Shown: piece after piece, positions 1 to 44,060 of the stretch
Numbering within the stretch: the stretch's first letter is position 1
Layout: each line of letters begins with the position of its first letter
Assembly: GCA_017560825.1 (NCBI GenBank)
Contig: JAFZED010000029.1
Coordinates: 1 to 44,060 of the forward strand
Direction of reading: 5' to 3'
DNA: 44,060 nt
DNA from: Bacteroidales bacterium
Lineage (GTDB): Bacteria > Bacteroidota > Bacteroidia > Bacteroidales > UBA932
Position numbers and translations under genes: made by a program
Notes under the pieces: generated by a model
Told to the model about the DNA's origin: nothing
Database searches by the model: none
What the model saw: the letters and a program-made list of their open reading frames with translations, nothing else

Positions 1-153
1 AACGAGGTCACCCTTAGTCTTAACCACCTGAGCAAGGCGGCCGTCTACGAGAGCGAGCTCGTCGTTTGATACACCTGTCGCCTTAAGCGATACTGTAGCC
101 TTTGTGATGGCCTCCAGCTGTGTATATGTTTTCTGAAATGCCTTATTTGCCAT
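1..153 (-). CDS. atpB: V-type ATPase subunit B, N-terminal part (cut by window edge)
   Basis: The minus strand opens with ATG at 153-151 and reads 51 codons to the window edge without a stop. The translation begins MANKAFQKTYTQLEAITKAT and continues through GRLAQVVKTKGDLV, which matches the N-terminal beta-barrel domain of the non-catalytic B subunit of V/A-type ATPases. This subunit alternates with subunit A in the soluble head and couples ion flow to ATP turnover. Its start lies inside the end of the A-subunit gene (11-base overlap), the usual A-B order and a sign of translational coupling. The rest of the gene, and presumably the D, I and K subunits, lie outside the window to the left. Confidence 0.9.
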   Translation of the reverse strand, partial: MANKAFQKTYTQLEAITKATVSLKATGVSNDELALVDGRLAQVVKTKGDLV

Positions 154-1894
154 TGCTTAGAAGATTATTGAGTTTGTTCAGATTTTCGTGGAATCTTTCG
201 CTCTTGAACTCAGAGTAGTTCATCTGTCTGAGTGCGTTGATGAGCTCCTTGAAGAAGTTGCGGCACTCCTCGAAGTCCTCGAATGTGAAGTCGCGTTCGC
301 AGATGCCCATAACCAGCTCGAGCATATATTTCTGTCTTTCAAGCGGACAGAGTGCGTCGATGTCGTCGAATGCGTCCTGCTGGAGGATGACGAAGTCGAG
401 AAGCTCTGACTTCCAGAACACCTCGTGGTAGCTCATAGGCACACCGTCGTCACCGAGGATGTTGATCTGGTCGTTGGCCTCTTTACCCTTGCGCACGATG
501 TTCTTTGCGCGCTCTACCATCTCTACCCAACCCGGCATAATGGTTTCGTTGAGGTACTCGCGGATCTCAGGATACTCGAGATATTTTGAATATGAGTCGA
601 TAGGGTTGACAGCAGGGTAGCGCTTCTGGTCCGCACGGTTCTGCTCGAGAGCGTAGAAGCAGCGAGCTGCCTTCTTTGTAGACTCTGTCACAGGCTCCTT
701 GAGGTTACCGCCGGCTGGAGATACAGTTCCGATGAATGTTACCGCTCCTGTCTGACCGTTGTTCAGAACGACCATTCCGGCACGTGCGTAGAAGTTTGAG
801 ATGATTGCTGAAAGGTCCACTGGGAACGCATCTGCTCCAGGGAGCTCCTCCATACGGTTCGACATCTCTCGCAGAGCCTGTGCCCAACGTGAAGTCGAGT
901 CTGCAAGGAGAAGGACCTTCATACCCATTGCGCGGTAGTACTCGCAGATTGTCATCGCAGTGTAAACGGATGCCTCACGAGCTGCTACAGGCATATTAGA
1001 AGTGTTACAGATGATGGTTGTACGCTCCATAAGGTGGCGTCCTGTGTGTGGGTCGATGAGTTCAGGGAACTCAGCGAAGATCTCCACAACCTCGTTCGCA
1101 CGCTCACCGCAGGCTGCCATCACGATCACGTCAGCGTCTCCCTGCTTTGCAATCGCGTGCTGGAGCACTGTCTTACCGCAACCGAACGGACCAGGGATGA
1201 AGCCTGTACCGCCTTCTGCTATAGGGTTGAGGCTGTCGATTGCACGTACACCTGTCTCCATAATTCTTGATGGTCTCGGCTTGTCCTTGTAACCCTTGAC
1301 AGCCACCTTTACAGGCCACTTCTGCCACATAGTCACATTTACGTCTTCGCCTTCTGCGTTTGTGAGGACTGCAACCACCTTGTCGATGTTGTACTGTCCT
1401 GCCTCAGCCACTGACTTTACAGTGTACTCGCCCTTGAATGCGAACGGAACCATAATCTTGTGAGGAAGCCATCCTTCCTTCACTTCTCCGAGCCAGTCTG
1501 CAGCGACTACCTTGTCGCCAGGCTTTGCAATCGGTGTGAAATCCCAAAGTTTCTCGTGGTTGAGAGGGTCGGTGTACTCACCTTTCTTAAGGAATACGCC
1601 TGTCATTGTGGTGAGGTCGTTCTGAAGACCGTCGTAGCTGCTTGAGAGGAGGCCTGGGCCGAGGGTTGCCTCGAGCATTCTGTCCTCGAACTCCACTACG
1701 TCACCGTTCTTGAGTCCACGGGTGCTTTCGAACACCTGTACTGCGGCATTCTTACCGTTCACCTTGATGACCTCAGCCATAAGCTTTGTGTCACCTACGG
1801 TGATGAAGCAGATCTCATTCTGCGACACCGGTCCGTTGGCCTCTACAGTCACAAGGTTTGAAACGATACCCGTAACTTTTCCAGTTGTTTTCAT
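143..1894 (-). CDS. atpA: V-type ATPase catalytic subunit A
   Basis: This 583-residue protein has the length and domain order of the V/A-ATPase catalytic A subunit: an N-terminal beta-barrel (about 1-75), the bulge or non-homologous region (about 110-190, with GPGLLSSSYDGLQ just before it), the nucleotide-binding domain and a helical C-terminal domain. The P-loop is GPFGCGKT near residue 236, followed by the GERANEVVEIFAEFPEL segment, LLLADSTSRWAQALRE and the SPAGGNLKEPVTE segment, all family hallmarks. It hydrolyses or makes ATP in the soluble head of the membrane rotary pump, which in anaerobes often moves Na+ or H+. It is the third gene of the leftward operon, 19 bases after the DUF2764 gene, and overlaps atpB by 11 bases. 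Confidence 0.97.
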   Translation of the reverse strand: MKTTGKVTGIVSNLVTVEANGPVSQNEICFITVGDTKLMAEVIKVNGKNAAVQVFESTRGLKNGDVVEFEDRMLEATLGPGLLSSSYDGLQNDLTTMTGVFLKKGEYTDPLNHEKLWDFTPIAKPGDKVVAADWLGEVKEGWLPHKIMVPFAFKGEYTVKSVAEAGQYNIDKVVAVLTNAEGEDVNVTMWQKWPVKVAVKGYKDKPRPSRIMETGVRAIDSLNPIAEGGTGFIPGPFGCGKTVLQHAIAKQGDADVIVMAACGERANEVVEIFAEFPELIDPHTGRHLMERTTIICNTSNMPVAAREASVYTAMTICEYYRAMGMKVLLLADSTSRWAQALREMSNRMEELPGADAFPVDLSAIISNFYARAGMVVLNNGQTGAVTFIGTVSPAGGNLKEPVTESTKKAARCFYALEQNRADQKRYPAVNPIDSYSKYLEYPEIREYLNETIMPGWVEMVERAKNIVRKGKEANDQINILGDDGVPMSYHEVFWKSELLDFVILQQDAFDDIDALCPLERQKYMLELVMGICERDFTFEDFEECRNFFKELINALRQMNYSEFKSERFHENLNKLNNLLSNGK

Positions 1895-1913
1895 ATAGAT
1901 AATTGTTATTTGT

Positions 1914-2543
1914 TTATTCTGTGTATTCTACTCCCTTGAATGTGCCGCGAATCTCGTCAACAAGCTTCTTGAACATTGCGCGTCCTGTCTCCTCGTCGAG
2001 GATGAGCCATCTGCGGATGATCATCATCTTCACCATCACTCCGAGGATCTTGTCGAAGTTCAGGTAGTCAAAGAGCGTCAGTTCGTCGATCTTGTCCCAG
2101 TAGAGGTCGTCAATGCCTCTTTCTCTGGCGAGGATGTCGTGGCCTTCAAGGATGCTCTGCAACTTTGCAGACTCCTTGAATTCCGGTTCCTCCGGTTCAA
2201 GGCCGGTCTCTTCTGCCTCAGGATCTCTGAGAGAGAGGACATCCTTTTCAGGATCTCTTCCCAGGGCCTGGTTCAGGTACCTTACCTTCTGGTTGCGCAC
2301 GTTGAGGTCGAATTGGAAGAATTCCCTGATGAATCCGAGCCTGTGTGCCAACGCCTCCTTGTAGAGTTCGGGACCGATCTGATCCTTGTCGAAACCCTTC
2401 ACGATGAAGTCGAGGACCTTGTTGTCCTTCTCGGACAAAAGTTCCCTGACCTGATCCAGGTACTCGTCAAGGCTCTTCTCACCCTGTCTCCAGTCCGGAG
2501 TGAAGTCGGGAAGACCTGCTATTATGTATACGTAGTTGTTCAT
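1914..2543 (-). CDS. DUF2764 family protein of the V-ATPase operon
   Basis: This 209-residue protein starts MNNYVYIIAGLPDFTPDW, the signature opening of the DUF2764 family found between the E and A subunit genes in Bacteroidota V-ATPase operons. It has no signal peptide or membrane segment and looks alpha-helical and acidic (many Glu/Asp runs around residues 105-130). Its position resembles that of subunit C, the small socket subunit linking stator and rotor, which is otherwise missing from this gene order, so a divergent C-like role is a reasonable inference but not shown. Its start codon shares one base with the atpE stop (TAATG arrangement), so the two are almost certainly translated together. 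Confidence 0.85.
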   Translation of the reverse strand: MNNYVYIIAGLPDFTPDWRQGEKSLDEYLDQVRELLSEKDNKVLDFIVKGFDKDQIGPELYKEALAHRLGFIREFFQFDLNVRNQKVRYLNQALGRDPEKDVLSLRDPEAEETGLEPEEPEFKESAKLQSILEGHDILARERGIDDLYWDKIDELTLFDYLNFDKILGVMVKMMIIRRWLILDEETGRAMFKKLVDEIRGTFKGVEYTE

Positions 2544-3148
2544 TATCCGAAGAGGAGTTTCTTGGTAGTTGGTCTTAAGTACTCAGAGATGAGCTGGTTG
2601 AATGTCTCCTCAGTGAAGCTGATGAAGTAGCTGCCCTCCTTAGGACCGATCTTGAAGCCGCCGGAAACCTTCTTTGAGAAAGAAGCCTCTACGCCAGCGT
2701 TGAGAATGGTTGCGAGCTCCTTTGTCACGAATGGCTCAAGGTCCTTCTTGAGGCTCTCAGGGAGGATGAGCGCGAGCTCTACAGGTCCGTCAGTAGTGAA
2801 CTTCTCAGCTACAGCCTTGATGATCTCCTTGATGAAGTCAGGAGTAGAGAGAGCCTTCTTCACTGCCTCGTCAGTCATCTTGCCCACGATGAGGGTCTCG
2901 ATGTCCTTTCTTGTAGCTGCAATGCTCTGGCTTGCCGCCATCTTCACGTCTGAAGCTGTCTTGGTCTTGACCTCCTCAGCCTGTTTCTGTGCTGCAGCAA
3001 GAATCTGCGCAGCCTCTGCCTGGGCCTTGGCAACGATCTCCTCAGCCTGTGCCTTTGCTTTAGCAAGAATTTCTTCGCCTTCCTGCTTGCCTTTTGACAG
3101 TCCCTCATTGTAGAGTTTGTCTGTCAATTCCTGCAATTTGTTCTGCAT
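2543..3148 (-). CDS. atpE: V-type ATPase subunit E (peripheral stalk)
   Basis: This 201-residue protein is strongly helical and charged in its first 110 residues, rich in Ala, Lys, Glu and Gln with repeated AKAQAEEIVAKAQAEA-like heptads. This is the long coiled coil expected of the E subunit in the peripheral stator stalk. The C-terminal half (about 115-201) would form the globular domain that clamps the A/B head. It is the first gene of the leftward operon, preceded by a good Bacteroidota promoter about 45 bases upstream. The stop overlaps the following DUF2764 start by one base. The family is weakly conserved in sequence, so the call rests on composition, size and operon position together. 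Confidence 0.85.
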   Translation of the reverse strand: MQNKLQELTDKLYNEGLSKGKQEGEEILAKAKAQAEEIVAKAQAEAAQILAAAQKQAEEVKTKTASDVKMAASQSIAATRKDIETLIVGKMTDEAVKKALSTPDFIKEIIKAVAEKFTTDGPVELALILPESLKKDLEPFVTKELATILNAGVEASFSKKVSGGFKIGPKEGSYFISFTEETFNQLISEYLRPTTKKLLFG

Positions 3149-5617: not shown

Positions 5618-8600
5618 TTATTTCAGCAGGTGGCTCAGGAAGCGGCGGGCTGTCTGCTCGTCCATTCCTCGGCGCACCGAGTAGTCATCGTACTGTTTCT
5701 GCGAGATGTGCCTGATGTCAGGATATTTAGCGTCAGGGTGCATAAATATAAGGCCGCTGATGCAGGACTCCGGCTGCATAGCGTAACTCTCTGTCAGCTT
5801 GATCTGAAGCCTGTCTCCTTCAGGAAGCAGCTCGAAGATGTCGCGCTTGAGGGTGTGGTCCGGGCAGCTTGCATAGCCGGCTGCAGGTTTGATGAGCTTT
5901 GAGCCCTCTTTCATATTCTCCTTCAGACGTGCGTCCAGCCAGCTTGAGGCTGCCTCGGCAACTGTCAGACGGACTGTACGGCCCACCAGGTCTTCATACT
6001 TGTTGCTGCAGGCCGGACAGCAGCAGCCTTCCTCGTGTGCGTCATTTGCCTTCACGCTGATGGCGAACACTCCGAAAGGGGAAGTCTTTCCGCTGCCAGA
6101 AGGGATCACGAAGTCGCTCAGTGACAGCATATCTCCGCTTTCCTGCCTCATCATCGGGAGTCTTCTTTCACCAATAGGTGTCTTTATGACTATGTCATCC
6201 TTGTCAGAAGATGCGTTGTAGAACTGCACTGCAAGCCTGATCTTGAAGGCGGCAAGGTCGAGTTCCGCTTCTGCATCTCTTCGCAGCTGCATAAGCTCGG
6301 CGACCTCAGGTACCGCACTGCCGTAGCGGACACCCCAGATTGCGTGCAGCATCTTCCAGTCGAAGTAAGGAATGATTTCCTCGACAGGGATCTCCATATA
6401 GCCGATACTCTCCGGAAGGCTCTCCGAATAAGTTTCGGCTGCAAAACCCTCTGTCTTCATCTTCCATTCAACCTTTGTCTCCTTTGCCTGTCGGGACTGG
6501 TATAGTCCCTGGATCCTGGCCTGTTCTTCGTGCTGTTCTTTCTCAAATGCTGTCTTGTCCATCATATATTTCTTAGCCATTACTGCTGCCGCAGAAGCGT
6601 CAGCTCCGTGGAATACGTGCCCATATAAAGGCGCGAGCTTCACTGCCGTGTGCAGGGCGGATGTGGTTGCACCACCGACCATCAGAGGAGTAGTCATCCC
6701 CCTTGCCGCCATATCCCTGCATATTTCTTCCATCTGGTAGAGTGACGGTGTTATCAGGCCGCTGACTGCGATGATGTCGGCGCCGACCTTCTGTGCCTGG
6801 TCGAGGATGGTCTCCTTGTCTACCATCACTCCAAGGTCGTGGACGTCGAATCCGTTGCAGGTCAGCACAATGCCTGTGATGTTCTTGCCGATGTCGTGAA
6901 CGTCTCCCTTTACTGTCGCAATCACCACTACAGGCCTGTCAGATGCTGATTCCTTGTCGTCCATATATGGCTCGAGAACGCTGACCGCATCCTTCATTAT
7001 CTTGGCAGACTTGACTACCTGAGGGAGGAACATCTTGCCTTCTCCAAAGAGGATACCCACAGCTTCCATACCCTGCATAAGAGGGCCTTCGATGACCTTG
7101 AGGGCGGTTCCGTGCTTTTCGAGTGCCTCTTTCAGATCATTCTCGAGGTGATCTGAATTGCCTTTTATCAGAGCATTCTTGAGGCGGTCTTCGACGGATC
7201 CCCGATGACTTGTGTCAGCCTGGGTGTCTCCGGAAATGTTGCCGGAACCTGTCTGCGCCGCTGCTTCTTCCTTCATTCGGGCTGCCTTTTCGATAAGTCT
7301 TTCAGTAGCTTCCGGGTCGCGGTTGAATATTACATCTTCAACACATTTCAGGAGCTCCGGTTCGATCTGGTCGTAGACCTGAAGCATTGACGGGTTGACG
7401 ATCGCCATATCCATTCCGGCCTGGATGGCGTGGTAGAGGAAGGCCGAATGCATTGCCTCGCGCACTGCATTATTGCCTCTGAATGAGAATGACAGGTTGG
7501 AGACTCCACCTGACGTCAGTGCTCCCGGGAGATTCTCCTTGATCCATCTGACAGCTTCTATAAAGTCGATTGCGTATTTGGAGTGTTCCTCGATACCTGT
7601 TCCGATGGAGAGGATGTTTACGTCGAATATTATGTCCTGAGGTGCCATTCCGGCCTTCTCCGTCAGAAGCCTGTAGGCCCTTTCGCATATTTCTATCTTT
7701 CTCTGGTAGGTGGTAGCCTGCCCCTCTTCGTCGAATGCCATCACCACCACGGCTGCTCCGAAAGACTTCAGTGCCCTTGCCTTTTCCAGGAATGCCTCGT
7801 CTCCTTCCTTCAGACTGATGGAATTCACGATGCATTTGCCCTGGGCGTTCTTCAAGCCCGCGAGGATGGTCTCCCAATGCGAAGAGTCAATCATCAGGGC
7901 AGCCTTCGCTACCGCAGGATCATTGGATATATAGCGGATGAAGCGCTCCATCTCCTTTGTACTGTCGAGCATAGCGTCGTCCATATTTATATCTATCACA
8001 GACGCGCCGTCCTCGATCTGTTTTGCAGCTATCTGGAGGGCTTCATCGTACTTTCCTTCTGCAATAAGACGTGCAAATTTCCTTGAGCCGGCTACGTTGG
8101 TCCTTTCACCGACGTTTGTGAAGTTATTTCGTTTCAGGTCCACTGTCACGGCCTCGAGACCGCTTACCTTGAGGGCAGAAGCCTCTGCATCTTCCGGCAG
8201 TTGATGAGCCGTCAGCCCGGCGACAGCCTCGGCAATTGCCTTTATATGCGCCGGCGTCGTTCCGCAGCAGCCTCCCACTATATTCACGAGCCCTTTTGAC
8301 GCCATTGCCCTGACCTGAGTGGCCATATCCTCTGGCGTCTGGTCGTAACCTCCCATTTCGTTAGGAAGTCCGGCATTAGGGTAGCAGCTGACGCCGCATC
8401 TGCACCATCTGTTTATGTCTTCCACAAGCGGCTGAAGTTCAGCGGCTCCGAGCGAACAGTTAAGTCCGAACGAGAGGATGGGGTAGTGCATTACCGAAGT
8501 GTAGAAAGCTTCCAAGGTCTGGCCTGTGAGTGTGCGCCCGCTCCTGTCTCCGACTGATACTGAGATCATTACAGGGACAACTTCGCCTCTTTCATCATTG

Positions 8601-9154
8601 CACTCCTGGATTGCAGAAAGGGCTGCCTTCACATTAAGCGCATCGAAGCAGGTCTCTATAAGAAGAAGGTCAGCGCCTCCGCGGAGAAGTTCCTTCGCCT
8701 GCTGGAGGTAGGCGCTGCGCATATCGTCGAATGAATATGGCCTGAAAGACGGGTCAGCGATGTCAGGAGAAAGCGACAGGGACTTTGAAGTCGGTCCCAT
8801 ACTTCCTGCCACGAGAACACGACGGCCGCAAGAATCTGCAGCCTCTCTCGCAAGCCTTGCACCCGCATATGCCATCATACCGGCAAAATCCTCGCAGCCG
8901 TACTCGGCCTGCGAGATTACATTCGCACTGAAGGTGTTGGTCTCGATGATGTCCGCGCCTGCGTCAATATATTCCTTATGAATCGCCTTGATTATCTCCG
9001 GACGGGTGAGATTCAGGCACTCGTTGTTGCCTTTCAGCTCTTTATTACACTCAAGAAAAGGACCATTGTGGTAGTCCTTTTCTGTAAGTCCGTATTTCTG
9101 GATCATAGTGCCCATCGCACCGTCCAGGACAAGTATCTTTCTGTCAAAAATCAT
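5618..9154 (-). CDS. metH: Cobalamin-dependent methionine synthase
   Basis: The enzyme moves a methyl group from methyltetrahydrofolate via cobalamin to homocysteine, giving methionine. I start it at ATG 9154 (MIFDRKILVLDGAMGTM, 1178 residues), because MetH N-termini align there and the longer reading from 9205 would run into oadB. Order of modules: homocysteine domain (about 1-310, zinc ligands in GLNCSLG and GGCCGTTP), folate/pterin domain (about 340-600), cobalamin domain (about 640-880, with DVHDIGKN supplying the B12 histidine, and VSGLITPSL), and the AdoMet activation domain. That last domain is odd: it carries a Cys-rich GCCCPAC segment and has KPAAGY where the usual motif is RPAxGY. 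It lies 16 bases after oadB and 10 before metF. Confidence 0.96.
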   Translation of the reverse strand: MIFDRKILVLDGAMGTMIQKYGLTEKDYHNGPFLECNKELKGNNECLNLTRPEIIKAIHKEYIDAGADIIETNTFSANVISQAEYGCEDFAGMMAYAGARLAREAADSCGRRVLVAGSMGPTSKSLSLSPDIADPSFRPYSFDDMRSAYLQQAKELLRGGADLLLIETCFDALNVKAALSAIQECNDERGEVVPVMISVSVGDRSGRTLTGQTLEAFYTSVMHYPILSFGLNCSLGAAELQPLVEDINRWCRCGVSCYPNAGLPNEMGGYDQTPEDMATQVRAMASKGLVNIVGGCCGTTPAHIKAIAEAVAGLTAHQLPEDAEASALKVSGLEAVTVDLKRNNFTNVGERTNVAGSRKFARLIAEGKYDEALQIAAKQIEDGASVIDINMDDAMLDSTKEMERFIRYISNDPAVAKAALMIDSSHWETILAGLKNAQGKCIVNSISLKEGDEAFLEKARALKSFGAAVVVMAFDEEGQATTYQRKIEICERAYRLLTEKAGMAPQDIIFDVNILSIGTGIEEHSKYAIDFIEAVRWIKENLPGALTSGGVSNLSFSFRGNNAVREAMHSAFLYHAIQAGMDMAIVNPSMLQVYDQIEPELLKCVEDVIFNRDPEATERLIEKAARMKEEAAAQTGSGNISGDTQADTSHRGSVEDRLKNALIKGNSDHLENDLKEALEKHGTALKVIEGPLMQGMEAVGILFGEGKMFLPQVVKSAKIMKDAVSVLEPYMDDKESASDRPVVVIATVKGDVHDIGKNITGIVLTCNGFDVHDLGVMVDKETILDQAQKVGADIIAVSGLITPSLYQMEEICRDMAARGMTTPLMVGGATTSALHTAVKLAPLYGHVFHGADASAAAVMAKKYMMDKTAFEKEQHEEQARIQGLYQSRQAKETKVEWKMKTEGFAAETYSESLPESIGYMEIPVEEIIPYFDWKMLHAIWGVRYGSAVPEVAELMQLRRDAEAELDLAAFKIRLAVQFYNASSDKDDIVIKTPIGERRLPMMRQESGDMLSLSDFVIPSGSGKTSPFGVFAISVKANDAHEEGCCCPACSNKYEDLVGRTVRLTVAEAASSWLDARLKENMKEGSKLIKPAAGYASCPDHTLKRDIFELLPEGDRLQIKLTESYAMQPESCISGLIFMHPDAKYPDIRHISQKQYDDYSVRRGMDEQTARRFLSHLLK

Positions 9155-9170
9155 ATTGCAAATATACGGA

Positions 9171-10313
9171 TTATCCCAGGAAACTGAGCAGGATTCCGGC
9201 TGCAACGGCCGATCCGATCACTCCTGCCACATTCGGAGCCATCGCGTGCATAAGCAGGTGGTTGCTCTTGTCGAACTCCCTGCCAGCATTCTGCGACACT
9301 CTGGCCGCATCCGGCACGGCTGACACTCCCGCGTTTCCGATAAGAGGGTTTATCTTGTTTTCCGGCTTGCAGAACAGGTTCATAAACTTCACGAACAGCA
9401 CTCCGCACATTGTCGCGATGATGAACGACATAAGTCCCAGACCGAAAATCTTGACAGAACTGCCGGTAAGGAACACGTCCGCCTGGGTCGAACATCCCAC
9501 GGTCACACCGATGAGAATAGTCACGACATCAATGAGCGGTCCGCGTGCAGTCTCCGCAAGTCGTTTTGTTACTCCGCTCTCCTTCAGGAGGTTACCGAAG
9601 AAAAGCATACCCAGAAGGGCCATTCCAGAAGGAACTATCATCGCAGTGAGGATGAATCCGACCACAGGGAATATGATCTTCTCCTTCTGAGACACGACTC
9701 TTGGTGGCTTCATCCTGATCAGGCGCTCCTTCCTGGTGGTGAGCAGCAGCATAATAGGTCGCTGGATCACAGGGACAAGGGCCATATAGGAATATGCCGA
9801 CACAGCGATGGCACCCATAAGGTGGGGCGCAAGCTTCGATGAAAGGAATATGGCGGTAGGGCCGTCGGCGCCGCCGATAATGCCGATGGCTCCGGCCTCG
9901 GCAGGATTGAAGCCCAGCTGAAGCGCGAGCGCATAGGCACCGAATATACCGATCTGAGCCGCAGCTCCGATGAGCATAAGGCGCGGTTGGGAGATCAGTG
10001 CCGAAAAGTCGGTCATAGCTCCGATACCAAGGAATATAAGGGGAGGATACCAACCCTGATGCACACCCTGATAGAGGATGTTGAGTACAGATCCCTCTTC
10101 GTATATACCTACGTTAAGTCCCTCAGTGATAGGAATATTGCCTATGATCATTCCGAATCCTATCGGAACCAGAAGCAGCGGCTCCCAGTCCTTCTTGATG
10201 GCTACTGTGATGAAGGCTATGCCGATCAGAACCATAATCAGATGCTGATAGGTCATATTTGCAAATCCGGTGTACTGCCAGAACTGCTGCAGACTTTCTA
10301 TTATTGTGTTCAT
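9171..10313 (-). CDS. oadB: Sodium-translocating decarboxylase beta subunit
   Basis: This 380-residue polytopic membrane protein matches the beta subunit of the Na+-transporting carboxylic acid decarboxylases (oxaloacetate, methylmalonyl-CoA, glutaconyl-CoA). It has about ten hydrophobic segments and the hallmark GIIGGADGPTAIFLSSKLAP motif, whose Asp is essential in the characterised enzymes for sodium binding, as well as the conserved N-terminal cytoplasmic-edge segment LLLVPIGFGMIIGNIP. It decarboxylates the carboxybiotin on a carrier protein and exports Na+. OadG lies 13 bases upstream, but neither the carboxyltransferase alpha subunit nor the biotin carrier is in this cluster, so the substrate cannot be told from here. 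Confidence 0.95.
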   Translation of the reverse strand: MNTIIESLQQFWQYTGFANMTYQHLIMVLIGIAFITVAIKKDWEPLLLVPIGFGMIIGNIPITEGLNVGIYEEGSVLNILYQGVHQGWYPPLIFLGIGAMTDFSALISQPRLMLIGAAAQIGIFGAYALALQLGFNPAEAGAIGIIGGADGPTAIFLSSKLAPHLMGAIAVSAYSYMALVPVIQRPIMLLLTTRKERLIRMKPPRVVSQKEKIIFPVVGFILTAMIVPSGMALLGMLFFGNLLKESGVTKRLAETARGPLIDVVTILIGVTVGCSTQADVFLTGSSVKIFGLGLMSFIIATMCGVLFVKFMNLFCKPENKINPLIGNAGVSAVPDAARVSQNAGREFDKSNHLLMHAMAPNVAGVIGSAVAAGILLSFLG

Positions 10314-10326
10314 AAAGTTGCCTAAG

Positions 10327-10716
10327 TTAGTTTCTTCTCTTGATGGTAATGACGTAACTCTCGTTGTCGTGTACCTTTTCGTTCATATGCTGATGAAGAG
10401 CCAGACCGATGGCCGCGTAAACCTCGCCCGAGCGCTTGCTCTCAAGCGCCAAGGCTATCGCTGCCATCTCTTCAGGAGTCGGATGGACCTCCGCTGTCTT
10501 CTTTTTGAATGACGGCAGTTTTATCTTAGGCATCTTGATCTGTCCAGAGGTCAGCTTGCCTATGAAAGTGTACGCAAAGTAGAGTATGATAAGGGCAATG
10601 AACACTACAGACACCGATACGGCAGTGATTATGATGCCGTGAGGATCTTTTGCGGCCATATCAGCACTCTTGGCTGCAACTTGTTCTGAGACCTGTAGTA
10701 AAACAAAAGTGTTCAT
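10327..10716 (-). CDS. OadG-family small subunit of a sodium-pump decarboxylase
   Basis: The 129-residue protein has one membrane segment near the N-terminus (about residues 28-50, IIITAVSVSVVFIALIILYF), then a charged linker rich in Lys and Pro (IKMPKIKLPSFKKK) and a helical tail with PTPEEMAAIALAL. This is the layout of the gamma subunit (OadG), which anchors the alpha subunit to the membrane beta subunit. Family members are short and divergent, so the call leans on the neighbouring oadB, 13 bases downstream. It is the first gene of a leftward transcription unit with a good promoter about 48 bases upstream, probably including oadB, metH and metF. Confidence 0.8.
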   Translation of the reverse strand: MNTFVLLQVSEQVAAKSADMAAKDPHGIIITAVSVSVVFIALIILYFAYTFIGKLTSGQIKMPKIKLPSFKKKTAEVHPTPEEMAAIALALESKRSGEVYAAIGLALHQHMNEKVHDNESYVITIKRRN

Positions 10717-10763
10717 ATTGTCAGAGGTTTAGATTATACGTTGTGCGTATTCTGTACAACCCA

Positions 10764-10794
10764 CAAAGTTAACATTTATTTCAAGTCATTCCAA
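10764..10794 (-). promoter_or_regulatory. Promoter of the oadG-oadB-metH-metF unit
   Basis: On the minus strand TTG (10794-10792) is followed after 20 bases by TAACTTTG (10771-10764), an exact TAnnTTTG -7 element with ideal spacing. It sits about 48 bases before oadG. Confidence 0.7.
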
Positions 10795-10804
10795 GATTGT
10801 GCTA

Positions 10805-10838
10805 CACAAAAAATCCGATGACTTTTCGGCCATCGGAT
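10805..10838 (-). terminator. Intrinsic terminator after the YebC-family gene
   Basis: On the minus strand ATCCGATG and CATCGGAT (10838-10813) make a perfect 8-base stem followed by a run of T. It lies 25 bases beyond the stop of the YebC-family gene and directly upstream of the oadG promoter. Confidence 0.85.
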
Positions 10839-10862
10839 CGTTTATAGTGCGTAATAATGTGA

Positions 10863-11594
10863 TTACGGCTTCATTGTGTGGTAAACGTTCTGAACGTCGT
10901 CGTCCTCCTCGATTCTCTCGATGAGCTTCTCGATGTCAGCCTTAGCCTCGTCGCTGAGCTCCTTGAGGTCTACGTTTGGAAGGCGGGTGAACTCTGCAGC
11001 AACGAGCTCGTAGCCGTTCTCCTCGATCCACTTCTGGATGGTGTTGAATGCTGTGAACTCACCGTAGAGTACGATCTCCATCTCCTCGTTCTCGTTCTCC
11101 TCCTCAAAGATTTCTTCCACTCCGAAGTCGATGAGCTCAAGCTCAAGCTCCTCGAGGTCGTAAGGGTTTGCGCTCTTCATACGGAACATACACTTGCGGT
11201 CGAACATATAGTCAACGCTTCCTGAAGTTCCGAGTGATCCGCCGCTCTTTGTGAAGTATGAACGTACGTTAGCCACTGTACGGTTGTTGTTGTCGGTTGC
11301 AGCCTCTACGAGGACAGCGATACCGTGAGGACCGTATCCTTCGAATACTACCTCCTTGTAATCTGCCTGATCCTTGTCGGTAGCTCTCTTGATGGCGCGC
11401 TCGATGTTGTCCTTAGGCATATTCTCGCTTCGTGCAGTCTGGATAAGCGCACGGAGGCGTGGGTTACCTGTAACATCAGGACCGCCCTGCTTTACAGCGA
11501 TTGTGATTTCCTTACCGATCTTGGTGAAGACGCGGGCCATATGACCCCATCTCTTGAATTTTCTCTCCTTGCGGAACTCAAATGCTCTTCCCAT
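10863..11594 (-). CDS. YebC/PmpR (TACO1) family regulatory protein
   Basis: This 243-residue protein matches the YebC/TACO1 family throughout: MGRAFEFRKERKFKRWGHMA and FTKIGKEITIAVKQGGPD at the N-terminus, NPRLRALIQTARSENMPKDN, then VEAATDNNNRTVANVRSYF, GGSLGTSGSVDYMFD and an acidic C-terminal domain. Family members act in the cytoplasm, some as transcription regulators (PmpR) and more recently as factors that relieve ribosome stalling, related to mitochondrial TACO1; which applies here cannot be seen. It follows the TPR gene by five bases on the same strand and ends at a strong terminator, so the two form a two-gene unit. The C-terminal region is unusually acidic (EEIFEEENENEEME). Confidence 0.93.
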   Translation of the reverse strand: MGRAFEFRKERKFKRWGHMARVFTKIGKEITIAVKQGGPDVTGNPRLRALIQTARSENMPKDNIERAIKRATDKDQADYKEVVFEGYGPHGIAVLVEAATDNNNRTVANVRSYFTKSGGSLGTSGSVDYMFDRKCMFRMKSANPYDLEELELELIDFGVEEIFEEENENEEMEIVLYGEFTAFNTIQKWIEENGYELVAAEFTRLPNVDLKELSDEAKADIEKLIERIEEDDDVQNVYHTMKP

Positions 11595-11599
11595 AACGA

Positions 11600-12268
11600 T
11601 TACTTGTTCTCGATTCTACCGATGTACTTGTCGATGTCGTAAGCCTCTACAGACTGTGGATACTGATCCTTGATTGTCTCGTAGAAACCGAGTGCCTTGG
11701 CGTTCTGGCCAAGCTTCTCAGCTACTGCACCAGCCTTGAGGAGGTAACCTGCAGCGAACATATTGTCAACAGTAGAAGCTGCCTTCTCGAAGCAAGCGAG
11801 AGCCTTCTCGTAGTTCTCAAGACCTACATAAGCGTCACCGATGCAAGCGGTTGCACGTGCTGCGAGGATAGCGTCCTTACCGTTGTAAGACTCGAGGTAC
11901 TTGATAGCAGATTCGAAGTTGCCGAGCTGGAGCTCGCAAACACCTGCGTAGAAGTAAACTGCCTTACCTGCCTTCTTGCCATACTCGTCGATGATCTGTG
12001 CGAAACCGAGTACGTTGCCGTCGCCGTTGAGGGCAACCTCGTAATCAGCTGCGCGGAAGTTCTGCTCTGCATAAGCCATCTGGCCCTGAGCCTCCACAGT
12101 CTTAGGCTGGTTTACAAACTTGTACCAGCAGAATACTGCAGCGCAGAGTACTACTGCACCTGCAAGGATAGAGATAAGGAGCTTACCGTTCTTCTCGAAG
12201 AACTGCTCTGTCTTTGAAACTGCCTCGACGATTACCTCGGCATTCTCGTTTTTGATTTCTTTAGCCAT
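11600..12268 (-). CDS. Membrane-anchored tetratricopeptide-repeat protein
   Basis: This 222-residue protein has an N-terminal cytoplasmic segment, a single membrane helix (about residues 30-50, LLISILAGAVVLCAAVFCWY) and then helical TPR-like repeats on the far side (VYFYAGVCELQLGNFESAIKYL; ATACIGDAYVGLENYEKALACF; AAGYLLKAGAVAEKLGQNAKALGFY). It resembles YfgM-type anchored TPR proteins that help secretion or envelope assembly, and the equivalent gene sits divergently from recF in other Bacteroidales. No partner can be named from the sequence. It has its own promoter in the shared gap with recF, and YebC follows five bases later. Confidence 0.8.
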   Translation of the reverse strand: MAKEIKNENAEVIVEAVSKTEQFFEKNGKLLISILAGAVVLCAAVFCWYKFVNQPKTVEAQGQMAYAEQNFRAADYEVALNGDGNVLGFAQIIDEYGKKAGKAVYFYAGVCELQLGNFESAIKYLESYNGKDAILAARATACIGDAYVGLENYEKALACFEKAASTVDNMFAAGYLLKAGAVAEKLGQNAKALGFYETIKDQYPQSVEAYDIDKYIGRIENK

Positions 12269-12343
12269 ATTTCAATAGTTTTATATTTGTCTGATATGTA
12301 CTTGATTATGTCTGGCGACGGTCCAGTCACTCCAAACAGGCGG

Positions 12344-12374
12344 CAAATTTAGGAAAAAATGTCCAAACTCCCAA
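12344..12374 (-). promoter_or_regulatory. Promoter of the TPR-yebC unit
   Basis: On the minus strand TTG (12374-12372), a 20-base spacer and TAAATTTG (12351-12344) match the Bacteroidota consensus exactly. It is divergent from the recF promoter 36 bases away. Confidence 0.7.
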
Positions 12375-12409
12375 TAAATATTTTCATATTCTCCTATCAT
12401 ATATATTCG

Positions 12410-12440
12410 TTGGATTTGTCGCTATTATTTGTTACATTTG
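12410..12440 (+). promoter_or_regulatory. Promoter of recF
   Basis: TTG (12410-12412), a 20-base spacer and TACATTTG (12433-12440) match the Bacteroidota consensus. The recF ATG lies 29 bases further on. Confidence 0.75.
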
Positions 12441-12469
12441 CCAAGATATCGCTAATAAGAGATTAACCT

Positions 12470-13567
12470 ATGCCCATTCTTGAGAAAATAGTCATTTCGG
12501 ATTTCAGGAACATAATCCTCCAGGAACTGGAGTTCTCTCCGAACGTGAACTGCGTAAGCGGCAACAACGGAGAAGGAAAGACCAATCTTCTTGACGCGAT
12601 ATATTATCTCTCGATGACAAAGAGCGCCTTCGCGCTTTCGGACAAGTTCAATTTCAGACACGGTACTGAAGAATTCTCACTTTCGGGACTTTACAGGATG
12701 GAAAACGGCCTTTCGAGCCGTTTTTCGGTGAAGATGACCTCGAAGGGAGAGAAAAAGATGAAGCGCGACGAGAAGCAGTACGGAAAGGTTTCGGAACATA
12801 TAGGCGTGCTGCCGGTGGTTATGGTCTCGCCTTCGGATATATCGATGGTGAGCGAATCAGGCGAGGAGAGACGCCGCTTCGTCAATGCCGTTCTCTCACA
12901 GATGGACAGGGAATATATGACATCTCTGCAGCAGTACAACCGCCTGCTGCTCCAGCGCAACAAGATGCTCAAGGAGCAGGATGTGGACAGGGGACTGCTG
13001 GAAGTCATAGATATGCGTATGTCAGCCTTCGCCGAACCTGTATTCCAGGCAAGAAAGAAGTTTGTCGAAGAGCTCACCCCGATAGTGCAGGAGTACTACA
13101 AGGCCCTTTCCGGTGACTCCGAGCAGGTGAGCATCGAGTATGACTCAGAGCTTTCCAAAGCTTCTCTGGAGCAGATTCTGGCAGCTTCCTATGACAAGGA
13201 CAGGGCCCTCAAGTACACAAGTGCGGGCATCCAGAGAGATGATTTCCTCTTCAAGATGAACGGCCATCCTATCCGCAGGTACGGCTCCCAGGGACAGCAG
13301 AAGTCGTTTCTTGTGTCCCTTAAGTTTGCCCAGTATGAGCTGATGAAGAAGAATTACGGTTTCGCACCAGTCCTTCTTCTTGATGATGTCTTCGACAAAC
13401 TGGATATGAGCAGGATCTCCAACCTTCTGGAGATGGTGGCGAGCAATGATTTCGGCCAGATCTTCATCACAGACAGCAACAAGGTCCGTATGGCGGGAAT
13501 CGTTGACAAACTGACCCAGGACAGGGCCTATTTCGACACTTCAGCTGGCACATTCAGACGATTGTAA
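12470..13567 (+). CDS. recF: DNA replication and repair protein RecF
   Basis: This 365-residue SMC-like ATPase helps load RecA at gaps during recombinational repair, together with RecO and RecR. Its Walker A is GNNGEGKTNLLDAIYYLS near residue 34, the ABC signature region is GSQGQQKS near 271, and Walker B is PVLLLDDVFDKLD near 302. Length is typical of RecF. The start ATG gives the conserved N-terminal strand IEKIVISDFRNI pattern (here LEKIVISDFRN). It lies just downstream of its own promoter and leads a rightward group: the DUF721 gene begins seven bases after the recF stop. A RecF next to a DciA-like DUF721 gene is a common bacterial arrangement. Confidence 0.97.
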   Translation: MPILEKIVISDFRNIILQELEFSPNVNCVSGNNGEGKTNLLDAIYYLSMTKSAFALSDKFNFRHGTEEFSLSGLYRMENGLSSRFSVKMTSKGEKKMKRDEKQYGKVSEHIGVLPVVMVSPSDISMVSESGEERRRFVNAVLSQMDREYMTSLQQYNRLLLQRNKMLKEQDVDRGLLEVIDMRMSAFAEPVFQARKKFVEELTPIVQEYYKALSGDSEQVSIEYDSELSKASLEQILAASYDKDRALKYTSAGIQRDDFLFKMNGHPIRRYGSQGQQKSFLVSLKFAQYELMKKNYGFAPVLLLDDVFDKLDMSRISNLLEMVASNDFGQIFITDSNKVRMAGIVDKLTQDRAYFDTSAGTFRRL

Positions 13568-13574
13568 TCAGGCT

Positions 13575-13916
13575 ATGGCATACGATGCAAGACAAAATAA
13601 GATGCGCCGTCAGGATGCGGTCGGGATGGAAGATCTGGTGAATCAGTTCATCAGAGAAATGAAACTTTCGTCCGGTCTGGACAAGGTGCACGCGGCTGCC
13701 GCGTGGAACGCAGTGAGCGGCGCGGAAGCCTACACCCTTGAGGTGCGTCTGGACAGGGGAGTGATGACCTGCACCTTGAGCTCGTCAGTGGTACGCAATC
13801 AGCTGTATTTCCAGCTCAATGCCCTGACCCAGAGGCTGAACGAGTACCTTTCCAAGGATCCGCTCTTTGCTCAACAGGGTACAGGACCTATAGTTAAGAA
13901 ATTGATATTGAAATAG
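13575..13916 (+). CDS. DUF721 (DciA-like) protein
   Basis: This 113-residue basic protein shows the DUF721 pattern: a helical start with VGMEDLVNQFIREMKLSSGLDK, AAAWNAVSGAEAYTL, and the strand-rich core MTCTLSSSVVRNQLYFQLNAL. The family includes DciA, the loader of the replicative helicase in bacteria without DnaC, and members commonly sit beside recF or gyrB. Here it is seven bases after recF and two before pdxB, so the three are co-transcribed. Direct function in helicase loading is inferred from family and neighbour only. Confidence 0.85.
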   Translation: MAYDARQNKMRRQDAVGMEDLVNQFIREMKLSSGLDKVHAAAAWNAVSGAEAYTLEVRLDRGVMTCTLSSSVVRNQLYFQLNALTQRLNEYLSKDPLFAQQGTGPIVKKLILK

Positions 13917-13918
13917 AT

Positions 13919-14953
13919 ATGAAGATTGTAGCGGATGTGGACATTCCCTTCCTCGAAGGAGTTTTTGAGCCATATGGTGAGGTTATATATAAAAAAGGTA
14001 TAGACATCGTCGCTGACGATGTTGTGGATGCAGACGCGCTGCTTGTACGTACCAGGACACAGTGCGACGCTTCACTTCTGGAAGGCTCGAAGGTGAAGAT
14101 CGTGGCTTCGGCTACAATCGGTACCGATCATATAGATAAGGAGTACTGCGCTTCACGCGGCATCCAGGTCGCTAATGCAAGCGGATGCAATGCCGGAGGT
14201 GTTATGCAGTACGTGTTTTCAGCGGTCTACGGTATTGCAGCACGCAAAGGAATAAAGCTGGATGACGTCACTTTCGGAGTGGTGGGAGTCGGAAATGTAG
14301 GAAGACTTGTAGCGGATATGGCAGAGTCGCTGGGCTTCAAGGTAATGCGCTGCGACCCTCCGCGCGCCCAGAAGGAAGGACCGGAAGGATTCTGCACCAT
14401 AGAGGAACTTCTGGCTCAGTCTCAGGTGGTGACGCTTCACGTCCCGCTTGACGAGACTACAAGGGGAATGGCAAACGATGCCTTCTTTACCCTTATGCTT
14501 CCCGGAGCCATATTCATAAATGCGGCAAGGGGAGAAGTGGTCAATGAAGAGGCCTTGATGACTGCCATACCGAAGCTTGGAGCTGTGGTGATAGACACCT
14601 GGAACAATGAACCGAATGTGAATGAGGAGCTTGTGGAGCTTGTCGACATAGCGACACCCCACATTGCAGGCTATTCCTATCAGGGAAAGGTCAATGGCAC
14701 GAGAATGGCTGTAAGGGCCGTCGCTGAGTGTCTCGACATAGAGCCTCTGAAGGATTTTTCTCCTGATGATTCGGACGAGGACCGCCAGCCGGTAAGGCTC
14801 GACCTGAGGGGAAGGACCCACGGTGAGATTGCGGCAGTCCTCCAGTACAACTATCCGATATTTACGGATGACTTCCGTTTCAGAATGGAGCCTCAAAAGT
14901 TTGAGAAACTCAGAAACGAGTACCAGTACAGAAGAGAAATAGTATTAGAATAA
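13919..14953 (+). CDS. pdxB: Erythronate-4-phosphate dehydrogenase
   Basis: This 344-residue NAD-dependent 2-hydroxyacid dehydrogenase oxidises 4-phosphoerythronate in the DXP-dependent route to pyridoxal phosphate. It starts MKIVADVDIPFLEGVFEPYG, a typical PdxB opening. It has the substrate-binding ASATIGTDHIDKEY, the Rossmann motif GVVGVGNVGRLVADMA (about 123-138), the catalytic Arg in INAARGEVV, and the catalytic His in TPHIAGYSYQGK, which separates PdxB from serA-type paralogues. The C-terminal domain is somewhat shorter than in E. coli PdxB (378 residues). It begins two bases after the DUF721 stop. Confidence 0.94.
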   Translation: MKIVADVDIPFLEGVFEPYGEVIYKKGIDIVADDVVDADALLVRTRTQCDASLLEGSKVKIVASATIGTDHIDKEYCASRGIQVANASGCNAGGVMQYVFSAVYGIAARKGIKLDDVTFGVVGVGNVGRLVADMAESLGFKVMRCDPPRAQKEGPEGFCTIEELLAQSQVVTLHVPLDETTRGMANDAFFTLMLPGAIFINAARGEVVNEEALMTAIPKLGAVVIDTWNNEPNVNEELVELVDIATPHIAGYSYQGKVNGTRMAVRAVAECLDIEPLKDFSPDDSDEDRQPVRLDLRGRTHGEIAAVLQYNYPIFTDDFRFRMEPQKFEKLRNEYQYRREIVLE

Positions 14954-14973
14954 CCAAATAATTGATAATCATT

Positions 14974-16554
14974 ATGTTTAGAAAAGAAGACATCGCGCAG
15001 ATTGAGCAGAGAGGCTCGTCAGTGCAGACAGTTGAACAGCAGGTGGAAAGATTCAAGCAGGGTTTCCCTTGGATGAAGATCATCGCTCCAGCGACTCCTG
15101 AGAAAGGAATCCAGGTCCTTGATGAGGCTGCTGTAGAAGCTGCAGTAAAGTACTATGAGGGTGCTGAAATCAATGGAAAGTGCAAGTTCGTTCCGGCATC
15201 AGGAGCAGCCTCGCGTATGTTCAAGGACCTTTTCAGCGGCCTTGACGCATTGAAGGCAGGCAAGGAACTCGCAGACGACGCTCCTGCTGCAAAGTTCGTA
15301 GACAAGATCCAGGAATTCGCATTCTACACTCCTGAACTTTTCGGTGAGCAGACCTGCAAATGCCCTGAGTACCGCAAGGATGTTCTTGCAAAGACCCTCA
15401 CAGACGAAGGACTCGGCTACGGCTCAAAGCCTAAGGGAGTTCTCAAGTTCCATAAATATACCGACGGAGAGATCCGCACCGCGTTCGCGGAGCATCTCGT
15501 TGAGGCTCAGAACTATATGAGAAACAACGACGGTACAGCGAATCTCGTAGTCACCATCTCTCCTGAGCATCAGCACCTCTTTGAAGAGGCATATGCTGAA
15601 GTGAAGGCCGCTTATGAGGCTAAGTACGGAGTTGCGTACAACATTACATTCACATTCCAGGACAAGGCTACAGACACTATCGCTGTGGACGTGGAGAACA
15701 AGCCTTTCAGAACAGAGACAGACTCCCTCCTTTTCCGTCCTGCAGGACACGGTGCTCTCATCTACAACCTCAATAAGATCGAGGAAGAGGTGGTTTCCAT
15801 CAAGAATATCGACAATGTGGCTAACGAGAGACTCCTTCCGGAGACAGCAACCTGGAAGAAGGTCCTTCTTGGCAAGGCCCTTGAGCTTCGTGACACTCTC
15901 CACGGCTATCTCCGTGAGCTTGACATAGTATGCAAGCCTATTCCTGGTTCTGAGAACAGAACTGTAGGTGTTCCAGGTTATGATCCTATTTATGATGATC
16001 TTTGTGCAACACCTGAGGCTATGCAGCTTTGTGACGACATTGAGGCATTCCTTAAGAATGTACTTTGCATCGAAATGCCGGTTGCCGAGACTCCTAAGGC
16101 TAGGGTAGAGGCTCTTCGCGAGAAACTCAACCGTCCTGTACGTGTTGCAGGTATGGTTAAGAACCAGGGTGAACCAGGAGGTGGTCCTTTCATCATCGCA
16201 GAGAAGGACGGCTCGACTTCGCTCCAGGTTCTCGAAAGCGTTCAGATCAATATGTCTGATGACCACGCGCGCAACGCTCTCGCTTCAGCTACACACTTCA
16301 ACCCGGTTGACATCGTATGCTGCCTCCACGACTATAAGGGAGAAAGCTTCGACCTCCTCAAATATGTAGACGAGGACGCAGGATTCATCAGCTCAAAGAG
16401 CTATCAGGGACGCGAGCTCAAGGCTCTCGAGCTTCCAGGTCTTTGGAATGGAGCGATGAGCAACTGGAACACTCTCTTCGTTGAAGTTCCGCTTGCAACA
16501 TTCAACCCTGTGAAAGTCGTTCTCGATCTCCTCAGACCGGCTCATCAGAACTAA
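14974..16554 (+). CDS. DUF4301 family protein
   Basis: The protein of 526 residues opens MFRKEDIAQIEQRGSSVQTV and continues with KGFPWMKIIAPATPEKGI-like sequence, the DUF4301 family of Bacteroidota. I use ATG 14974 rather than the in-frame TTG at 14962. The conserved block FVPASGAASRMFKDLF and the GVLKFHKYTDG and FRPAGHGALIYNLN segments recall nucleotide-sugar or UTP-hexose transferase-like folds (GAATRMF-type loop, PAGHGAL), so a sugar-nucleotidyltransferase-like enzyme is possible, but no reaction is established. It follows pdxB by 20 bases and ends at a strong terminator. Codon use looks highly biased, with many CTC, AAG and GAG codons, suggesting good expression. Confidence 0.85.
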   Translation: MFRKEDIAQIEQRGSSVQTVEQQVERFKQGFPWMKIIAPATPEKGIQVLDEAAVEAAVKYYEGAEINGKCKFVPASGAASRMFKDLFSGLDALKAGKELADDAPAAKFVDKIQEFAFYTPELFGEQTCKCPEYRKDVLAKTLTDEGLGYGSKPKGVLKFHKYTDGEIRTAFAEHLVEAQNYMRNNDGTANLVVTISPEHQHLFEEAYAEVKAAYEAKYGVAYNITFTFQDKATDTIAVDVENKPFRTETDSLLFRPAGHGALIYNLNKIEEEVVSIKNIDNVANERLLPETATWKKVLLGKALELRDTLHGYLRELDIVCKPIPGSENRTVGVPGYDPIYDDLCATPEAMQLCDDIEAFLKNVLCIEMPVAETPKARVEALREKLNRPVRVAGMVKNQGEPGGGPFIIAEKDGSTSLQVLESVQINMSDDHARNALASATHFNPVDIVCCLHDYKGESFDLLKYVDEDAGFISSKSYQGRELKALELPGLWNGAMSNWNTLFVEVPLATFNPVKVVLDLLRPAHQN

Positions 16555-16559
16555 ATGAT

Positions 16560-16600
16560 ATAAAAAATCCAAGGTCAATCGAGGCCTTGGATTTTTTTAT
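16560..16600. terminator. Bidirectional terminator between convergent genes
   Basis: AAATCCAAGG and CCTTGGATTT flank a short loop (16565-16594), with A-run before and T-run after, so it can stop transcripts from both the DUF4301 gene (rightward) and the HGSNAT-like gene (leftward). Confidence 0.85.
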
Positions 16601-16620
16601 ATACCTATATTAATATATGC

Positions 16621-17736
16621 TTATATCTTAAGGAAGGTCTTCTTCTGATAGAGGAAGTAGAGGAAGAGCCAGCTGATGGCAACGAAACCGAAGTCGAGAA
16701 GGACGTCCGCCCACTGTGGAGGGAGTTTTTCGGCTATGCCTCCGAAGAAGAACTTGTTGATGCTGCTGAAGCTTATGATTCTCTGAGCCATATAGATGGT
16801 GATGGAGTTCATACCTATGACAGCAAAGAACTTTGTCCATTTCTGCCACTTCCTTACATCTATGATATAATAGAAAATGGCAAACATTCCGACGCTGTAT
16901 GCTCCTACGACAAGGACGAACGAGCTGGACCAGAGCATCTTGTTCAACGGGAAGACAAGGCTCCAGAGAAGTCCTGTTGCAAGAAGTGCGGCAGCGGCTC
17001 CCGCCATATAAAGAGATTTTCTTTTGCCTGATATCTTTTCTTCCGGGATGCGTACGAACTCACCTGTGAAGATTCCAAGCATCGCTGTTACCACTGCCGG
17101 TACAGTGCTGAGGAGTCCTTCCGGATCGAAGCGTCCTCCGTCATAGATGAGTCTGCCCGGGGTGATGAGTCTGTCGATGTAGCCGATAAGGTTGCCCTGC
17201 ATAGTAAGTGCTGCTGCACCTTCTGCGTCTGGAGCCGGAACATAGCAGATCAGAAGCCAGTAGCCGATGAGCACAGCGCCGCAGATGATGGCTCTGGTCT
17301 TTGCGCTGAAGTTGATGTACAGGATGGCTGCACACATCCAGGCAAGACCTATTCTTCCGAGAACACTGCAGATACGCAGGCTTGCAAAGTCAAATTTGAA
17401 GAATCCGTTATAGACGACTCCAAGGAAGATGAGGATGAGGGCTCTCTTGAAAATCTTGATGTAGATCTGCTTTGAAGTCTTTCCAGAAGCTACCTGTTTT
17501 GCATAAGAGAATGGGAAAGACATACCCGCAAGGAAGAGGAAAAGCGGGAATATGGTGTCGTGATGGGTCAGGCCGTGCCATTTTGCGTGTCCCATTGTTG
17601 TGGCGAGCCAGCAGTCGGCTCCGCCCGGGAACAGTGAGCATATGGAGATCACGAGCGATGAAAAGCCCATAATGAAGAGCATATCAAATCCTCTAAGGGC
17701 GTCGATTGATAGCAGTCTCTGCGGTTTGTTTTCCAT
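16621..17736 (-). CDS. HGSNAT-like / DUF5009 polytopic acyltransferase
   Basis: This 371-residue membrane protein has about ten hydrophobic segments. The N-terminus carries LSIDALRGFDMLFIMG (the DALRG motif of the HGSNAT/YeiB-like families) and then WHGLTHHDTIFPLFLFLAGMS, which places a His near the first lumen-side loop as in human heparan-alpha-glucosaminide N-acetyltransferase and bacterial NagX-like proteins. These transfer an acetyl group to glucosamine across the membrane. It is divergent from a GH89 alpha-N-acetylglucosaminidase, 165 bases away, and in animals these two activities are consecutive in heparan sulfate breakdown. Whether this protein acetylates glucosamine here is inference; other sugars or muropeptides are possible. 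Confidence 0.8.
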   Translation of the reverse strand: MENKPQRLLSIDALRGFDMLFIMGFSSLVISICSLFPGGADCWLATTMGHAKWHGLTHHDTIFPLFLFLAGMSFPFSYAKQVASGKTSKQIYIKIFKRALILIFLGVVYNGFFKFDFASLRICSVLGRIGLAWMCAAILYINFSAKTRAIICGAVLIGYWLLICYVPAPDAEGAAALTMQGNLIGYIDRLITPGRLIYDGGRFDPEGLLSTVPAVVTAMLGIFTGEFVRIPEEKISGKRKSLYMAGAAAALLATGLLWSLVFPLNKMLWSSSFVLVVGAYSVGMFAIFYYIIDVRKWQKWTKFFAVIGMNSITIYMAQRIISFSSINKFFFGGIAEKLPPQWADVLLDFGFVAISWLFLYFLYQKKTFLKI

Positions 17737-42968: not shown

Positions 42969-42997
42969 ATTGCTTAAGTGGTTGGTTATCAGGGGCT

Positions 42998-43051: not shown

Positions 43052-43074
43052 AATTGTAAATATTATAATAGGAC

Positions 43075-43663: not shown

Positions 43664-44012
43664 TTAGAACTATTGGGCCATATGGCCAAAAGAGAAGCGC
43701 TCATAATAAGCGCTTCTATAATCAATACTGATGTTTCGCAATTGTTGCTGATCGTGGGTTATTTTCCGATGCAGAAAGTTAGATAAATTGATTATTAAAG
43801 AGTTCTCTTTTATGATGCCGAAATATTTTTCTACGACGATGCAAAGCATTGATATATAATGATATACAATGAGACTTTGTCCGTCCATACCTAACATTGC
43901 AAAGATAGACATTTGGATTGTATTTGCAAATCATTTCTAGTGTATTATCGCTGTTAATAGCTATGTTGATGTGGTCCTCAAAAAGATACTTTTAAAATTT
44001 ATGGCATCTATA

Positions 44013-44043
44013 TTGCAAACAAATTTGTTTATTTTTATATTTG
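44013..44043 (+). promoter_or_regulatory. Strong promoter with a palindrome in its spacer
   Basis: TTG (44013-44015), a 20-base spacer and TATATTTG (44036-44043) match the Bacteroidota consensus exactly. The spacer contains the perfect 14-base palindrome AAACAAATTTGTTT (44017-44030), well placed for a repressor. An ATG follows eight bases after the -7 box. Confidence 0.7.
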
Positions 44044-44050
44044 CACAACT

Positions 44051-44060
44051 ATGAGAGAGA
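44051..44060 (+). CDS. Start of a gene leaving the window
   Basis: ATG at 44051 follows a consensus promoter and opens M-R-E before the window ends. The very short leader (ATG within about 10 bases of the -7 box) would make the transcript nearly leaderless, so the true start may be further right. Identity cannot be told. Confidence 0.35.

Follow-up and report, generated by a model that had tools for sequence, protein, structure and literature searches.

Absence of CATG from a Bacteroidales contig and parallel depletion of the motif among its relatives

The stretch of DNA investigated here (the window) comprises the 44,060 nucleotides of contig JAFZED010000029.1 from assembly GCA_017560825.1 of a Bacteroidales bacterium, positions 1 to 44,060, and does not contain a single copy of the palindromic tetranucleotide CATG. 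From the list of its open reading frames we assigned 34 genes, which leave 28 non-coding gaps with a total length of 4.8 kb, and the CATG-free stretch (1..44060, unstranded) covers coding and non-coding DNA alike. A metH-like gene on the minus strand (5618..9205), named by eye, served as the probe for finding relatives and as the basis of the phylogenetic tree described below. The part from 7269 to 19133 is collinear with a contig of a relative, L137, with 90.5% identity.

The CATG-free window and its genome

A previous sequence-only reading of the window had claimed that CATG was missing where some 170 copies would be expected. The full count was indeed 0, against 170.9 predicted by base composition alone and 180.6 expected from the trinucleotide and dinucleotide counts. 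The second-lowest tetranucleotide was CTAG (7 against 59 expected), which was low also in many of the sampled relatives.

The gap was also said to span genes and non-coding DNA and to bend codon choice, and both statements were borne out. When synonymous codons were shuffled within the 34 genes, 200 shuffles gave a mean of 157.2 CATG (standard deviation 8.0, minimum 138), and the non-coding gaps harboured 0 CATG against approximately 17 expected. Histidine followed by a G-initial codon was encoded by CAC in 62 cases and by CAT in none, whereas before other codons CAT was used in 60 of 128 cases. The ATG of methionine was never preceded by a codon ending in C, although about 128 such cases were expected. 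Codon or dinucleotide bias was therefore rejected as the cause, since both the Markov-type expectation and the synonymous shuffle (157 ± 8 against 0) leave the absence unexplained.

The assembly to which the window belongs (as contig 27) is here termed G000; it has a size of 2.06 Mb and is 77% complete. Of this genome 20 stretches were first taken, and two that consisted entirely of N were excluded from the counts. As the sequence-only reading had proposed, CATG was counted in a sample of the rest of the genome, and the absence was found to reach past the window: the 308,979 sampled bases, the window included, contained 46 CATG where approximately 1,197 were expected or, in a second count, 1,284 (ratio 0.036). 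In PMC4687349 (2015) a site is regarded as avoided at a ratio of 0.78 or less, and CATG falls far below this value both in the window (ratio 0) and in the 309 kb sample.

The residual 46 copies were unevenly distributed. Three stretches of lower GC content, all located at contig starts, contained 37 of them: L004:1-7600 (GC 0.36, 14 CATG), L015:1-4310 (GC 0.36, 8 CATG) and L222:1-3940 (GC 0.44, 15 CATG). The remainder of these three loci had 0 CATG against approximately 171 expected. Seven further copies lay within approximately 1.4 kb of a contig end, and one of the two found elsewhere falls in an apparent rpmH, read by eye. The first two islands are low-GC pieces with a HamB-like helicase (a PADLOC match), a TIR protein and a tyrosine recombinase, and the third carries an MmeI-like Type IIG enzyme and an AbiD-like protein. 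A protein of 233 amino acids in L015 resembled HamA by eye only and was matched by neither Pfam nor PADLOC. Given the CATG on the islands and its absence from the remainder of the same loci, the sampled core of G000 has been purged of CATG, and the islands, which are probably recent arrivals, have been spared.

How the sites were lost

In the part collinear with L137 (7269..19133, unstranded), none of the 42 CATG present in the relative was kept by the window, compared to 67.9% of all 4-mers. The bin of contig L137 (G285, 2.7 Mb) is possibly mixed, and the contrast with the window was drawn on this contig alone. In the same bin, the contig start L305 had 1 of 77 expected CATG and L306 had 53 of 77, as would be seen in a mixed bin or a mosaic genome. 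In 26 of the 42 differences, CATG was replaced by CATA or TATG.

The direction of change was assessed by regarding a CATG as ancestral when it occurred in the sister and also in at least one further relative. Of such sites the window kept 0 of 27, against 73.9% of other 4-mers. Four other depleted loci behaved in the same way: L064 kept 0 of 75, L066 0 of 36, L073 0 of 49 and L074 0 of 50 ancestral CATG, compared to 68%, 71%, 57% and 59% of other 4-mers, respectively. L073 and L074 are sisters, and the five depleted loci therefore count as about four events. Among non-depleted loci, 29 of 34 ancestral CATG were kept in L065, 47 of 60 in L070 and 11 of 39 in L067, the last of which is itself somewhat low in CATG (ratio 0.67) and kept 28% of its CATG against 50% of its other 4-mers.

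The losses left the encoded proteins nearly untouched. Relative to L137, 39 of the 41 coding losses in the window were synonymous, and 12.9% of all changed codons in the collinear stretch alter the amino acid. The route of escape differed with the phase of the site: where it was read as NNC-ATG, 29 of 30 losses were synonymous, where it was read as CAT-G, 5 of 6 (CAT to CAC), and where it was read as NCA-TG, 5 of 5 (to NCC or NCT). At several sites the window, L064 and L066 share one replacement while L137, L062, L065 and L067 keep CATG. Examples are 14438..14441 on the plus strand, with CACG in the first three (His CAT to CAC); 15353..15356 on the plus strand, with CCTG (Thr ACA to ACC); and 11759..11762 on the minus strand, with CATA (Asn AAC to AAT before Met).

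The type of loss thus tracks the reading frame, which neither a mutational process nor a sequencing artefact can know, and this argues for selection on the motif with the proteins conserved. Together with the codon shuffles and the zero retention of ancestral sites, it gives good support to the proposal of selection against a 4-base site made from the sequence alone. The alternative offered there, a mutation or repair process that removes CATG, found no support as the sole cause. C-to-T decay and base-calling artefacts were both rejected as sole causes by the frame-dependent synonymous loss.

Depletion in the genus and candidate systems

With the metH-like protein, 80 named relatives were fetched, and the metH tree consisted of 81 rows including the window. 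The nearest relatives are titled only Bacteroidales bacterium, many of which come from the guts of ruminants, and three that are more distant are Candidatus Cryptobacteroides; we infer that the genus is Cryptobacteroides. The CATG content of the 80 loci ranged from 0 to above expectation. When a row with less than 0.4 of the base-composition expectation was regarded as depleted, 12 of the 81 rows were depleted and their distribution on the tree needed 11 changes. Depleted and normal genomes can be sisters, as are L064 (depleted) and L065. CATG depletion is thus a lineage trait that has arisen separately several times in the genus.

The same trait was scored in 250 genomes of the genus by the count of WWCATGWW relative to the reversed pattern. 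The ratios were worked out by hand, and strong depletion was defined as a ratio below 0.4. It was detected in 26 of the 250 genomes, including G000 (54 WWCATGWW against 515 of the reversed pattern). The depleted, intermediate and control sets used below were hand-picked from these 250 genomes. Four genomes appear under two handles with identical fetched sequences: G275 is G193, G276 is G153, G277 is G259 and G278 is G156.

Other palindromes were depleted in some relatives. AGCT or ACGT was strongly depleted in L031, L072, L078, L112, L090 and L133, and purges of a single palindrome may therefore be common in these gut Bacteroidales. In G284 (L313, L314, L140), a more distant metagenome-assembled genome (MAG) titled Salinivirgaceae, GATC was found 0 times in 60 kb against 216 expected, and a D12 methyltransferase was located within L313. 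In G067 (L232, L233, L237) both CATG (25 against 222 expected) and GATC (10 against 212) were rare, and no match to five methyltransferase families was found.

A system of the presumed cognate type occurs in relatives of the same genus. The ICEA endonuclease (PF05315) was searched for in 250 genomes, named only in part and taken to be the same draw as those scored for CATG, and was found in two, G193 and G130. Both belong to the 26 depleted genomes, for which the chance is 0.010. The operon of G193 lies between apparent core genes and consists of a 264-amino-acid HPPY methyltransferase, the ICEA endonuclease (E 4e-117) and a D12 methyltransferase; in G130 the ICEA gene stands beside a D12 methyltransferase gene that is cut by the contig end. 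CATG was counted 12 times in G193 (340 expected, 82.5 kb fetched) and 13 times in G130 (212 expected, 52 kb fetched). The 20 kb around the G193 operon contained only two CATG, both inside the operon. At the same His-Gly codons near the start of the HPPY methyltransferase gene, CATG is kept in G193 (L295) and G130 (L296) and is CACG in G161. From its family and the CATG depletion of both genomes, the ICEA operon would be expected to cut and methylate CATG. The ICEA protein had one distant partial match in plasmids, one relative in viral contigs and no match among solved structures.

The genome of G161 is also depleted (52 CATG against 256 expected) and carries both methyltransferases, 64% and 66% identical to those of G193, with a different protein of 383 amino acids between them. 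Broken remains of a gene of this type are present between ICEA and D12 in G193 (L295:12870-13179), and the arrangement looks like an endonuclease replacement in a system that kept its methyltransferases. By eye, the 383-amino-acid protein may be a nuclease; a Pfam search returned no match, and it had no relative in viral contigs and no match in G000. It was rejected as a common agent, as a search of 80 genomes detected it only in G161, in broken form in G193 and weakly in G077 (E 0.006).

NlaIII is an endonuclease which we take to belong to the ICEA family. The ICEA endonuclease beside a D12 methyltransferase in G193 and G130 resembles the CATG-specific NlaIII and iceA1-hpyIM system of Neisseria and Helicobacter, from which the G193 operon differs by its second, HPPY-type methyltransferase. 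No system of this type was found in G000. A DpnII-type operon consists of DpnM, DpnA and DpnII. The G193 operon is similar to it in bringing together a D12 methyltransferase, a second N6_N4-like methyltransferase and an endonuclease, but the endonuclease is of the ICEA family and its site would be different.

No methyltransferase family accounted for depletion across the genus when matches were counted at E up to 0.001. In the depleted set (26 genomes), D12 was present in 4 and N6_N4 in 12; of the 6 intermediate genomes they were present in 1 and 2, and of 40 controls in 16 and 21, respectively. N6_Mtase was found in 12 of the 26 depleted genomes against 9 of 14 controls, and C5 in 5 of 26 against 8 of 24. 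Among 18 named relatives searched for D12 only, 7 had a match. In G259, a DnaE-like polymerase gene, named by eye (L194, G259:C158), is split by an apparent intein region with an N6_N4 methyltransferase and an HNH-like protein. MmeI-like enzymes gave any match in 9 of 26 depleted against 5 of 24 control genomes and a strong match (E < 1e-50) in 4 of 26 against 0 of 24. The only restriction enzyme matched in G000 was the MmeI-like one. It was not taken as the cause because its island carries CATG and because avoidance was seen in 0 of 107 Type IIC/G cases in PMC4687349.

Possible causes of the purge and their meaning

The evidence is best explained by selection on the motif having purged the core genome, most likely through a CATG-specific Type II system, still resident or lost recently, of the NlaIII/ICEA type or a functional equivalent. 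Such an endonuclease would occasionally cut the host's own sites when methylation lags, each CATG would thus be slightly costly, and its loss would be favoured via whichever substitution keeps the protein unchanged. The NlaIII-like system named in the sequence-only reading, and the genome search proposed to detect it, had a divided outcome: an ICEA endonuclease with methyltransferases exists in two relatives, both depleted, and none was found in G000. As the system was unfound in this 77%-complete genome and in several other CATG-poor ones, its agency in G000, restriction as the cost and past residence in this lineage are what we infer.

Under-representation of a short palindrome, with a trace that may persist in relatives after the system is lost, is also what PMC4687349 describes for Type II systems. 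Avoidance was there reported for 47.9% of the orthodox Type II cases and was caused by hardly any other type of system; it depended on residence time and left traces that can outlive the system. No comparable case of zero copies was seen in the passages of that survey that were consulted, and the depletion here, unlike what they describe, arose independently in sister lineages belonging to one genus, in one case within approximately 10% nucleotide divergence. The present case fits avoidance of this kind, and is extreme in its completeness and in its repeated origin among close relatives. No report of a CATG-free bacterial genome was found in the open-access literature searched.

Several observations weigh against this explanation. 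CATG is present on the islands of the window's own genome, and ICEA, D12, N6_N4 and C5 gave no match in G000. ICEA accounts for only 2 of the 26 depleted genomes. G259, which is 95% complete, gave no D12 match and is not one of the genomes with ICEA; its fetched DNA had 0 CATG in 39.4 kb, but another contig of 3.7 kb had 20. Eight of the 26 depleted genomes (61–89% complete), G067 among them, lacked all five methyltransferase families searched, a set that excludes MT-A70 and Eco57I-type methyltransferases, for which no search was made. Either the systems of such genomes were lost, or they are missing from the bins, or they belong to other families, for example MT-A70 or the Eco57I type. In Helicobacter pylori, where M.HpyI of the iceA system targets CATG, PMC10423294 reports this motif as the densest methylated one, with 9,036 per Mb, no relation of motif density to how frequent the endonuclease is, and strains in which the endonuclease is missing. 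Such a system therefore need not purge its site, which is abundant there and depleted here, and an additional factor must be at work in the purge, perhaps methylation that is weak compared with cutting.

Restriction without modification, in which CATG is cut by an endonuclease that has no partner methyltransferase and absence of the motif marks self, is unlikely, although it survives better than the other rivals. The absence in the window is complete rather than partial, and the eight depleted genomes without any of the five families, as well as G259 without D12, would agree with it. The 37 CATG on the islands of G000 are, however, tolerated there now, the endonuclease in the clear case of G193 is accompanied by two methyltransferases, and no orphan CATG nuclease was found, the G161 protein being absent from G000. 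It is equally doubtful that some lineages repeatedly enter methylation-free CATG restriction and, once the methyltransferase or the entire system has gone, gradually recover the motif.

Somewhat less likely still, the system was never resident and DNA exchange with CATG-restricting relatives favoured site-free DNA. A benefit of this kind is supposed for GATC avoidance in PMC4687349, and 24 of the 26 depleted genomes show no ICEA, but exchange would touch few sites at once, yet almost no CATG is left in the sampled core. A mutation or repair bias by which a modified cytosine in CATG quickly becomes T is quite improbable. The 26 changes to CATA or TATG relative to L137 are as it predicts; the CAT-G and NCA-TG escapes, though, are T to C, or A to C or T, at a silent position, with 0 such sites remaining, histidine before G-initial codons survives as CAC, and G000 had no C5 methyltransferase match. 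Selection at the RNA level by an endoribonuclease cutting CAUG is slightly more improbable again. Genes dominate the genome, and with a motif that is its own reverse complement, strand would not separate DNA from RNA, but the non-coding gaps, though possibly transcribed, are CATG-free too, and a CATG-family system that restricts DNA is present in relatives. Miscalls are known at modified motifs and CATA and TATG dominate the changes, but an artefact of sequencing or assembly has a negligible probability, with 39 of 41 changes synonymous and tracking the frame, islands retaining CATG in the same assembly, and depleted loci drawn from MAGs of several series.

Most reports of restriction-site avoidance describe a partial effect, and little is known of how fast it develops, while the sister lineages described here range from normal to zero. 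Repeated, parallel and silent loss of the same sites within one genus constitutes a natural, replicated experiment, from which the cost of self-restriction, the speed at which a genome is emptied of a motif and the duration of the trace after loss of the system can be measured. A CATG-free genome would, moreover, be largely immune to CATG restriction.

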